This document shows, one piece after another, positions 20,101 to 26,100 of a DNA stretch of 64,000 nt; within the stretch, counting starts at the first letter, position 1; each line of letters starts with the position of its first letter. The stretch covers positions 5,363,608-5,427,607 of the forward strand of contig NC_092647.1 of the NCBI RefSeq assembly GCF_039555335.1, written 5' to 3'. The stretch comes from Amphiura filiformis (taxonomy: Eukaryota > Echinodermata > Ophiuroidea > Amphilepidida > Amphiuridae). Made by a program: the position numbers and the translations under genes. The notes beneath the pieces were generated by a model. The model had not been told where the DNA came from and did not search any database. It worked only from the letters and a program-made list of their open reading frames with translations.

Positions 20101-23100
20101 TGATTGGTCGCCCAGATCTCATTTTGGCTTAAATCCTCCGGGCACGAGCCATAACCATTATCTAAATCATACACAACTATCTGTGGAATTTGCGATGCTT
20201 AGTGCATGGATGTATGTCTAGTGCATCTTGTACTTCCATGCTTGGTGCTTGCGGTTAAATTGGATTGATAACAAATAGATGGCAAGTATGATTGACAGTG
20301 TGTGTTAGGGACAAAGTCCTACGCAAAATACATAGTCAAATTTTTACTCAGGCTTTCGCGATCAATAAACTGGTAGATTCTAAAATCAGAATTGTTCAGT
20401 ATTGAAGTGAGCCATTATAATCATGCCAAGATGTTGCATTCAATAACATCCGTATACCTTACTTTTACTGTCACTAATTATAAAAACTTTTTTATTGAAT
20501 ACTATAAACATGATAAATAATTTCTAGTTCAACTGAATGCGTTCATCATGATTAATAATATTTTTCATTTATCAAAAATTAGTGACTAAGGCATAGTCTA
20601 ATGCCCATTAAGGCCCATTCACACCCATAACATGACTTTGTACATTATTTTAACTCCCACAATGTAGCTAGCCAACTAGCATGTCTATTACAGATTAGAC
20701 CTTGTCTCCAATAGTTTACCTGTTATGTCTAGTACGTCTGAATCAGCCCTGAAGTCATTATACATAGTTTCCAGGAATGCGAGGCCATGTCCCTGACGCT
20801 GGTATGGTGGCAATACAAGCACTTGGCTGAAGAAAAGAATTATAGATATAGTATGCAATTTAGTTCATCATCTACATGCCTATCACTCTAGAACCCCAAC
20901 GGCCAAGTGTGATCAATTTTTCGCCACACTCAATCAATCAATCAATTCTGGAAATCCCGCTTCTTATTTCCGACGCACCACTGCTCAGCAGAGTAAATCT
21001 ATCTATATCACCATTTCACAACATTACTATTAACACAACTAATCTACTACCATCACTGTACACAACTATTATACTAATGCCCTGGGACCTAGGGAGGGTG
21101 CAGGAACAAGCCTGGGGATGATCCCCCTACTCTTTTCGATAAGGCCTGCAACTTTTTACGCATTCAGGTTCGACTCGTCTGACACACGGAACCGCCATTT
21201 TATGTGACCATTCGAACAACACGAGAAGCCGGGCACCCACTGTGTATACATGCACATTCTACACAGTGGATGGGAGTGAGGAGAAATTATCACAAATATA
21301 TTCTGCTAGACTGAAAGATAATATGATTGTGAAATTTCTGACCTATTGGAACTATTTAGAGTGATCATGAGCAACAAGGATTGGGCAGGATGGAGTTTTG
21401 AACCACTGACCCCTCCCTCAACTCTCCCTAATGGTCCAGCGCCTTAGACCACTAGGCCACCTCACCCTCTCACCCTACAGGGTGTATCAAAATGTTTGGT
21501 ACCCATCATTTTTGGTGTTTATTGACAAGCCTGCTTCTTCATATGCAACAGTGGATCCTATTGAAATTCCCAGTGGATCCTATTGAAATTCCCAGGATTT
21601 ATAGTTTTTGACCTTTCATAACATCTATAAATAAGGTAGCTCCAATGTTGCATTTTGTTGTAGTAGTCTTCTTGTTCGTATTCTGTTGGGTTAGATAGTA
21701 GTTGTAGACTGTACCATAACCTCTTACACATGCTTACCTTATTCTTGGTCGTATTCTGTTGGGATAGGCATAGTAGTTGTAGACTGTACATAATCTCTTA
21801 CACATGCTTACCTTATTCTTGGTCGTATTCTGTTGGGATAGGCCTAGTAGTTGTAGACTGTACCATAACCTCTTACACATGCTTACCTTATTCTTGGACG
21901 TATTCTGTTGGGATAGGCCTAGTAGTTGTAGACTCTTACGCATGCTTGCTTACCTTATTCTTGGTCGTATTCTGTTGGGATAGGCATAGTAGTTGTAGAC
22001 TGTACCATAACCTCTTACACATGCTTACCTTATTCTTGGACGTATTCTGTTGGGATAGGCATAGTAGTTGTAGACTCTTACGCATGCTTGCTTACCTTAT
22101 TCTTGTTCGTATTCTGTTGGGTTAGAATAGTAGTTGTAGACTGTACCATAACCTCTTACACATGCTTACCTTATTCTTGGTCGTATTCTGTTGGGATAGG
22201 CATAGTAGTTGTAGACTGTACCATAACCTCTTACACATGCTTACCTTATTCTTGGACGTATTCTGTTGGGATCTAGGCCTAGTAGTTGTAGACTCTTACG
22301 CATGCTTGCTTACCTTATTCTTGGTCGTATTCTGTTGGGATAGGCATAGTAGTTGTAGACTGTACCATAACCTCTTACACATGCTTACCTTATTCTTGGA
22401 CGTATTCTGTTGGAATAGGCATAGTAGTTGTAGACTCTTACGCATGCTTGCTTACCTTATTCTTGTTCGTATTCTGTTGGGTTAGAATAGTAGTTGTAGA
22501 CTGTACCATAACCTCTTACACATGCTTACCTTATTCTTGGTCGTATTCTGTTGGGATAGGCATAGTAGTTGTAGACTCTTACGCATGCTTGCTTACCTTA
22601 TTCTTGTTCGTATTCTGTTGGGATAGGCATAGTAGTTGTAGACTGTACCATAACCCCTTACACATGCTTACCTTATTCTTGGTCGTATTCTGTTGGGATA
22701 GGCATAGTAGTTGTAGACTGTACCATAACCTCTTACACATGCTTACCTTATTCTTGGTGGTATTCTGTTGGGATAGGCATAGTAGTTGTAGACTGTACCA
22801 TAACCTCTTACACATGCTTACCTTATTCTTGGTCGTATTCTGTTGGGATAGGCATAGTAGTTTTAGACTGTACCATAACCTCTTACACATGCTTACCTTA
22901 TTCTTGGTCGTATTCTGTTGGGATAGGCATAGTAGTTGTAGACTGTACCATAACCTCTTACACATGCTTACCTTATTCTTGGTCGTATTCTGTTGGGATT
23001 GGCATAGTAGTTGTAGACTGTACCATAACCTCTTACACATGCTTACCTTATTCTTGGGACGTATTCTGTTGGGATAGGCATAGTAGTTGTAGACTGTACC

Positions 23101-26100
23101 ATAACCTCTTACACATGCTTTCCTTATTCTTGGTCGTATTCTGTTGGGATAGGCATAGTAGTTGTAGACTGTACCATAACCTCTTACACATGCTTACCTT
23201 ATTCTTGGACGTATTCTGTTGGGATAGGCATAGTAGTTGTAGACTGTACCATAACCTCTTACACATGCTTACCTTATTCTTGGACGTATTCTGTTGGGAT
23301 AGGCATAGTAGTTGTAGACTGTACCATAACCTCTTACACATGCTTACCTTATTCTTGGTCGTATTCTGTTGGGATAGGCATAGTAGTTGTAGACTGTACC
23401 ATAACCTCTTACACATGCTTACCTTATTCTTGGACGTATTCTGTTGGGATAGGCATAGTAGTTGTAGACTGTACCATAACCTCTTACACATGCTTACCTT
23501 ATTCTTGGTCGTATTCTGTTGGGATAGGCATAGTAGTTGTAGACTGTACCATAACCTCTTACACATGCTTACCTTATTCTTGGTCGTATTCTGTTTGGAT
23601 TGGCATAGTAGTTGTAGACTGTACCATAACCTCTTACACATGCTTACCTTATTCTTGGACGTATTCTGTTGGGATAGGCATAGTAGTTGTAGACTGTACC
23701 ATAACCTCTTACACATGCTTACCTTATTCTTGGTCGTATTCTGTTGGGATAGGCATAGTAGTTGTAGACTGTACCATAACCTCTTACACATGCTTACCTT
23801 ATTCTTGGACGTATTCTGTTGGGATAGGCATAGTAGTTGTAGACTGTACCATAACCTCTTACACATGCTTACCTTATTCTTGGTCGTATTCTGTTGGGAT
23901 AGGCATAGTAGTTGTAGACTGTACCATAACCAACCAAAGCATACTGTTTCTTTCCATCAACCATATACCTTTCAAATCTGTAAAAACATGAAGAGGTCCG
24001 AAGTGTAAAAAGTTAATGAAAGAGAAGCATATTGGAGAAAAGGTAAACCTAGCATACAATCATTTTTTCACTTTGCTTGCTGTCAAGAAGTTAAAGAAAG
24101 AGCTTTATTTTTATTCTTGAAATCTATTGAGAAAGGTGGGTCACAAATTCAAGAAAACATTATATGTAAGCTCAGCATGGGCATCATCAGTCTTTTCCTG
24201 CCCTCAGAAAATCACCCAAATTTTCATAATATTGTGAATATATTGCAATTATACTAAATACGGTGGTAAAAAAAGTATATTTTACTTTTAAAATATCATC
24301 TCAACATTTCAAAAATAGTAACCATGATGTACACTACAAATAGTGAATTTCAGTGAACAGATTCATCAGGTTTGTACTGGTAATTTTTGTGTGACATCAG
24401 AGGACTTCATCAGATGTGATTCACTTTCCTGGGAAACTGACATTCCGGTTGTGTAGTCTCTTTTGCAGTCTTTAAAATACTAGTATAAGTATCATCAATT
24501 TGAAAACAATATTCTAATATTTATTGTCGGCAGTGATATCGTACATGATGAGTTTCAAAAAATTAAAATTTGAACTTACAAAGTGAAATACATCCATCTG
24601 TCGTCATCATCATCGATATAGGACGCTGCTGCATCGATATACCACCAAAGGAATGTTTGTAATCGTTTGTGATACTCCTGGAATCCTGGTACATCAATGG
24701 TGTTCTTATAGATCTCGTAATACTTTGTAGTGTCATCGGATTCCTTCGGGTACGAGTGCAACAATGTACCTGTCGGAGTGAAGTCAGCGTCTTCTGGAAT
24801 CCTGGCGATGAATTTATCTAGGTTGTCTACGATAGGTATCTCTAGCTTGTCGGATATGACTTTCAGGACATCATCAGCCTGGAAAAACAATATTATAATA
24901 AGAACGAGAGCCTCGTAACAAATTATTGGGGCAATTTGTTTTGCTACTCTGACAGGAAAATACAATTTTTTTCCATGTCAAGCATATCTAGCTAGGCATT
25001 AACAGCTAAAATCTAGGTGATAACATTAATTTGTAAATTAAATCTAATACTGGAACTAATTTGCAACTCACTTTGCTACGTTGCGTCCAAAAACATCGGA
25101 CTTCGTCAGGCATCTGATTGAAGATGTTGTGATAACGTCAGATGTTGTAATAAAGAAAGTTAGCGATATGCAGTGTATCACCCTGCTGACTATACTGTGT
25201 CCCATCTCAAGTTAAGAGTGACGCCATGTTGGATTTTTTAGTGGCAGACTTGAATCAGTGCGTTTTACGTCATTGCGTAATGCGTATGGACTTGAATCAA
25301 GTGCGTTTACGTCATTGCGTATGGACAAGCGCTCTTCTACACGTTACTCTCAACTTGAGAGGAGACACAGTATAAATCATTAGAAGGTATATATATATAT
25401 GTAAACTTTACCTGCACTCCATCAAACATGTTCTTCTTTATTTCTGATGTGCAGACCTTGTTGAGGTATGGTGTCAGCTTAGCAGCCGTATAAAATAATT
25501 GAATCTTCAGACCTTTGTAGCCAAATATATTCTCACTAAAATTGGGACAAAAAAAACATAAATACATAATCATACTGAGAAAAGAGGATGGCAGCGTCAT
25601 TTTTTCCTACTCAAAGCTGGATGTTCCAATTTATTATATAATAGCCTCATCCATACTTTCTTCCCCCATCAAAATGGGAATTTTTGCTTAAAGTTGAAAT
25701 ACTAAATTACACATTACAAACTTTGGGATTTATCATCAGTTACCTTGATAAGGATCATACATTTGTATGATTACATCAATTCCCTATTCCAGAAAAATAC
25801 AGAACCAATACTTTTGAGATTAAAAAAAATATTACCAACTTCTGCCAAGTGTCAAATGAAACAGCTCAATCGATAATAATCATTTGGCACTAAATGGCAA
25901 TAAACATTAAATTTAACTATTGGCCAAATTTATGAATTGAGAGCCAAAAACCAGGGACTGCCTTTTGAGAAGAGCGAGAACAATCACTCTCTACTGCTCT
26001 TCTTAACTCTGATATAAGAGAGTGATTTTTAGCTCTCCTTAGTTGACTATTCTCTCCTTACATTCTATTGTAAATGATAAACAGCACTCCTTGAAGGCTC

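Follow-up and report, generated by a model that had tools for sequence, protein, structure and literature searches.

A 75-bp tandem array spanning the splice donor of a HAT1 coding exon in Amphiura filiformis

The window, by which we mean the whole 64-kb stretch of Amphiura filiformis DNA that was analyzed, encodes HAT1 on its minus strand at 16967..27797, where nine coding exons were found. Eight of them were retrieved in collinear order by tblastn with a human HAT1 query, the N-terminal exon was added by tblastn with N-terminal pieces of relatives, and the exact exon borders were set by splice-site inspection. The exons and the tandem array that one of them borders are listed below, with the evidence for each.

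27797-27726, minus strand: HAT1 coding exon 1 (tblastn with relatives' N-terminal pieces, splice sites)
26593-26518, minus strand: HAT1 coding exon 2 (tblastn, splice sites)
25535-25412, minus strand: HAT1 coding exon 3 (tblastn, splice sites)
24878-24580, minus strand: HAT1 coding exon 4 (tblastn, splice sites)
23977-23873, minus strand: HAT1 coding exon 5, 105 nt, bordering the array; its bases 23931-23873 correspond to the exonic portion of the unit
21669..23872, minus strand: array of 75-bp units, 29 complete and 1 truncated, inside the 3046-bp intron 23872-20827
20826-20720, minus strand: HAT1 coding exon 6, 107 nt, with acceptor TCTTTTCTTCAG and the QRQGHG motif; it would join the array-bordering exon
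19316-19165, minus strand: HAT1 coding exon 7 (tblastn, splice sites)
18020-17904, minus strand: HAT1 coding exon 8 (tblastn, splice sites)
17134-16967, minus strand: HAT1 coding exon 9 (tblastn, splice sites)

Joined, the nine exons form a frame of 406 codons whose sole stop is terminal, and the product scored 128.9 bits for Pfam Hat1_N (curated cut-off, 22.9) and 94.4 bits for HAT1_C (curated cut-off, 27). Given this frame and the two domains, the gene looks functional as judged from its sequence, and the identification as HAT1 made in the original prediction is borne out by tblastn and by both domains. The translation of the array-bordering exon, RYMVDGKKQYALVGYGTVYNYYAYPNRIRPRIR, resembles the HAT1 chains 9mjg and 2p0w (E about 1e-6). 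Among the best 120 of 1082 protein matches, the top three were from sea stars (65 to 66%); sea urchins, sea cucumbers, and one feather star came next (60 to 63%), with acorn worms at 58 to 60% and a second crinoid at 55%. By itself, this ranking points to a likely echinoderm source, perhaps a brittle star. When the stretch that is duplicated in the array was compared by eye with 15 relatives, no column was invariant in the relatives yet changed here. A short start-bearing first exon may be missing from the nine; none was found upstream of 27797, though an ATG is present inside the first exon found. The array-bordering exon, previously numbered 6, is the fifth of the nine found, and the earlier number would be right if an undetected first exon precedes them.

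On the minus strand, the 75-bp tandem array adjoins the 3' border of the exon at 23977-23873 with no gap, so that the real exon, together with its acceptor, does lie at the array edge, as had been predicted. The units run head to tail from the 3' edge of this coding exon and carry the exon tail and the splice donor within them; the repeated stretch starts within the exon, at 23931. Tandem Repeats Finder reported a single array (score 3792) that covers 21669-23931 with a period of 75 and 30.7 copies, and this score and copy number exclude a chance origin. Anchor counting placed 29 complete units and 1 truncated unit downstream of the exon's own copy, and each 75-bp unit comprises 59 exon bases (23931-23873) plus the first 16 intron bases. 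The unit had thus been described correctly as an exon tail with its donor and a few intron bases, although the split is 59 + 16 rather than 57 + 18, and the predicted 30 copies hold for those that follow the exon's own, with only 29 of them complete. Without the array, the host intron would measure about 0.84 kb, and the six other HAT1 introns compared range from 533 to 1403 bp. Across the window outside the array and the exon, blastn with the unit gave no match longer than 12 bases. A protein search with a 302-amino-acid open frame through the array (in a non-HAT1 frame) yielded no independent array copies elsewhere, and no exact match to a 32-base piece of the unit occurred in the viral contigs scanned. 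Folding of RNA from one or two units was no better than that of shuffled sequences (z scores of 0.01 and 1.21, respectively). In addition, the plus strand at 22575-24008 has an open frame of 477 codons, measured from stop to stop, that runs antisense to the array and the exon; such a frame arises by chance because the unit is 75 bp long, and annotation could mistake it for a repeat protein. The same intron also holds, at 21390-21462 on the minus strand, a tRNA-like stretch (GGTGGCCTAGTGGTCTAAGGCGCTGGA...GTGGTTCAAA) that by eye resembles the head of a SINE; ARAGORN called no tRNA, this stretch included.

The window is generally rich in minisatellites. Downstream of HAT1, a 77-bp repeat occupies 14802-15040 (3.1 copies, 99%); the idea that it might be another array at an exon edge was rejected, with tblastn giving only weak, chance-level matches and Pfam none, hence no coding match. 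A tandem repeat family with a period of 196 to 197 bp occurs at 44740-45269, 54336-54775, and 54970-55411, the second of these being reversed by consensus, and two further minisatellites lie at 52277-53185 (179-bp unit, 5.1 copies) and 56252-57460 (151-bp unit, 8.0 copies). Long degenerate triplet-type repeats, TTA/TGA and then ATC/AAT, with 15- and 18-bp periods and in two opposite orientations, fill 1125-4051. Among 1674 inverted pairs, the 25 longest fall in this region; their arms measure 579 to 595 bp with a complementarity of 72 to 76%, owing in part to the simplicity of the units. Rfam returned nothing at gathering scores. Pfam scans of six frames of 4100-16900, 28000-42999, and 43000-57999 (E values of at most 0.01, with stops translated as Gly) found 0 families in 18 frame translations. 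As a control, the same scan of the HAT1 region recovered Hat1_N above the cut-off in two of three minus frames and HAT1_C in one minus frame below the cut-off (17.4 versus 27 bits), so this type of scan can miss short exons.

Each copy of the unit brings with it a potential splice donor. The motif AAG/GTAAGC is intact in 28 of the 29 complete downstream copies, or in 29 copies when the exon's own is counted. GTAAGC had been predicted for every unit, which is correct except for unit 10, where the donor is lost (GGAAAGC), and for the truncated copy, from which the donor has been cut away. The unit donor agrees with 7 of the 9 consensus positions. Among the six other HAT1 donors that were scored, which span 5 to 8 matches, three reach this same value. 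For acceptors, a crude matrix was built from the eight real HAT1 acceptors, whose leave-one-out scores ranged from 5.6 to 10.7. No AG in the array reached the lowest real score of 5.6; the best array AG scored 4.4, and of the 3056 minus-strand AGs elsewhere in the window, 223 equal or exceed this value. When pyrimidines are simply counted, 24 of the 210 array AGs have 11 in 16 positions and tie with the lowest real acceptors. As read from these motifs, the array is donor-rich, with acceptors that are weak at best. Moreover, the HAT1 frame continued past the exon reads ...RPRIR*, the TAA being intron bases 2 to 4 of the exon's own donor, so the use of any later donor would end HAT1 before the QRQGHG motif. 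Considering that no array AG scores like a real acceptor and that a stop lies in frame within the donor, the array is probably an intronic minisatellite that is spliced out from the exon's own donor, with the other donors acting as decoys.

Variation among the units was described for a set of 30, consisting of the exon copy (unit 0, which begins in the exon) and the 29 complete downstream units. Mean identity was 94.2% over ungapped columns and 91.1% when gaps were counted, and two parts of the array can be distinguished.

22645..23920, minus strand: homogeneous proximal part, units 0 to 16, mean identity 98.1%
21786..22502, minus strand: duplicated five-unit block within the distal mosaic (22502-22143 and 22142-21786)

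Counting gaps, identity was 98.1% in the 17 exon-proximal units versus 85.5% in the 13 distal units, five of which are short variants of 66 to 67 bp. The proposed identity of at least 95% therefore applies to the proximal units and to the full-length distal units in comparison with the exon but fails for the short distal variants. Units 19 to 23 (360 bp) and 24 to 28 (357 bp) form the duplicated block, with 354 of 360 columns identical. In total, the 30 units comprise 16 distinct sequences arranged as an ordered mosaic. At one variable column, which corresponds to a silent CGA/CGT site of the exon, 20 of the 30 units (the exon copy included) carry A, 9 carry T, and 1 carries C. Since the proximal units are nearly homogeneous, growth of the array appears to have been more recent near the exon, in agreement with the recent expansion that had been proposed.

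The distribution of these variants also bears on the possibility that the exon and the array swap sequence, through gene conversion or through unequal exchange that includes the exon, such that the array would overwrite part of a conserved coding region. Over the full 75 bp, the exon copy is identical to 7 of the 29 complete downstream units (units 2, 5, 7, 13, 18, 23, and 29), which are scattered along the whole array, and homogeneity is highest in the units next to the exon, as such exchange might produce. However, the exon copy shows the commonest state in every variable column of the 30-unit alignment, as purifying selection alone predicts, and identity between units does not decay with the distance between them (Spearman -0.02, P = 0.62). 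The alignment of all units that had been suggested as a check on homogenization with the exon thus did uncover the shared sequences, but these are expected equally if purifying selection keeps the exon in its ancestral state. Homogenization of the array with the exon is possible from these patterns, and we regard actual rewriting of the exon from the array as somewhat unlikely.

Arrays of comparable construction are known from human genes. The 31-bp variable-number tandem repeat (VNTR) of CBS, c.1444_1467+7(16_21), comprises by its name 24 exon and 7 intron bases in 16 to 21 copies, with units differing by single bases, according to the account in PMC2630376, and it is entered as "exon 13-intron 13" in PMC1395315. 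As far as these accounts go, it resembles the HAT1 array in that an exon tail, the donor, and the first intron bases are repeated, while differing in the length of the unit (31 bp versus 75 bp) and in belonging to a human metabolic gene; in addition, CBS copy number varies between people, whereas the HAT1 array is known from one assembly. A second CBS variant, 844ins68, is described as a duplication of the intron 7/exon 8 junction in which splicing strongly prefers the more distal copied site (PMC2630376). In human ABCA7, a 25-bp VNTR in intron 18 starts at the exon-18 donor and is reported to range from about 12 to 427 copies between people (PMC5954066). Like the HAT1 array, it begins at the exon's own donor and its repeat carries the GT; unlike the HAT1 unit, its unit, as described, starts at this GT and so lacks a repeated exon tail. 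It had been argued for HAT1 that ordinary minisatellites carry no coding sequence, a generalization contradicted by the CBS VNTR, with its repeated exon tail and donor, and by the ABCA7 VNTR, which starts at a donor. Tandem duplication has also been invoked for intron gain (the Rogers model), with potato RdRp, ATP2A1, and 24-bp AGGT repeats of fission yeast as cases (PMC4974935). These share with the HAT1 array tandem copies containing AGGT or a splice junction, but in the cases described the copies supply the splice sites of a new intron, whereas the HAT1 array would merely lengthen an existing one; the intron-gain model moreover needs a usable acceptor, which is doubtful here. Based on its unit, the HAT1 array is best classed as a splice-donor-spanning minisatellite of the CBS/ABCA7 type, large in size.

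Taken together, we consider it likely that a 75-bp exon-edge stretch, present in 29 complete copies and 1 truncated copy (a number that rests on one assembly), leaves the transcript together with the intron through splicing at the exon's own donor, and that the 28 remaining intact donors would act only as decoys. The array presumably originated when a short segment straddling the exon-intron boundary was duplicated once in tandem, and unequal exchange or replication slippage then enlarged it; five units (360 bp) were duplicated in its distal part, and the expansion next to the exon is probably recent. Both the intron before duplication and the direction of growth are what we infer from the present sequence. 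Because the final copy ends short of its donor, the simplest model of duplication has to be supplemented by a subsequent deletion at the distal end. Splicing could depart from this explanation if a donor other than the exon's own were chosen, as the preference for the more distal site in CBS 844ins68 illustrates. In laboratory tests of duplicated donors, the intron-proximal site is often preferred. That the first donor remains canonical in HAT1 is suggested by the analogy with ABCA7 only; by the same analogy, the next donor may be used at times, giving stop-containing RNA, and long alleles might skip the next exon, which at 107 nt would shift the frame here.

These ABCA7 effects raise the possibility that the decoy donors matter, with HAT1 output being tuned by copy number via RNAs that contain a stop or lack the next exon. 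The 28 further intact donors and the immediate in-frame TAA would permit this. In the reported ABCA7 results (PMC5954066), a donor one unit downstream is used, leading to a premature stop; blocking nonsense-mediated decay (NMD) yields more stop-containing transcripts; and skipping of exon 19 increases with array length. Single-unit retention in ABCA7, by contrast, shows no change with array length in that report, which speaks against such tuning, and we judge it unlikely in HAT1. Exon-edge arrays need not be harmless, because summed alternative transcripts of ABCA7 exceeded the canonical transcript in 90% of BA10 samples and in 31% of hippocampus samples (PMC5954066). A bolder proposal joins both departures: the 28 decoy donors would form a length-dependent rheostat governing how much HAT1 RNA stops at the shared TAA or lacks the next exon, and continued exchange between the exon and its copies would make a conserved stretch of the catalytic domain evolve in concert with an intronic minisatellite; we consider this combination improbable.

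The remaining explanations fare worse. An assembly artefact, in which one exon edge was falsely multiplied or the copy number mis-stated, is conceivable for an array from a single assembly, but the ordered mosaic and the diversity of variants, including those of length, argue against simple multiplication, and the duplicated five-unit block has itself diverged although false repetition should yield identical copies; an artefact is thus very unlikely. That this HAT1 locus is a non-functional copy with the array as a sign of decay seems highly improbable, since the nine exons, the splice sites, and the 406-codon frame are all intact, although 2.2 kb of repeats next to a splice junction could upset expression. 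Finally, the use of array copies as 18-nt in-frame microexons (CCCAACAG/AATACGACCAAGAATAAG/GTAAGC) adding RIRPRI repeats to HAT1 can practically be set aside, for although 27 CCCAACAG...GTAAGC segments exist (the exon's own counted), 26 of them 18 nt long, their insertion would preserve the frame (RIRPRISQV), and the AG with 11 of 16 pyrimidines equals the lowest real acceptors, its matrix score falls below those of all eight real acceptors, hundreds of other AGs in the window match or exceed even the best array AG (see above), and the implied introns would be just 49 to 57 nt.

The human CBS and ABCA7 cases make the HAT1 array less surprising than the original prediction held, while its setting differs from that of CBS in being an invertebrate gene with a longer exon tail. 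The locus offers a natural test of how the spliceosome chooses among 29 donors with identical nine bases, mostly 75 bases apart. Its interest would rise further with RNA evidence for a role of the decoy donors or with population data in which exon and array exchange variants. Should the gene be functional, which its intact frame suggests, the locus also shows that minisatellites at an exon edge are able to expand within a conserved chromatin gene.
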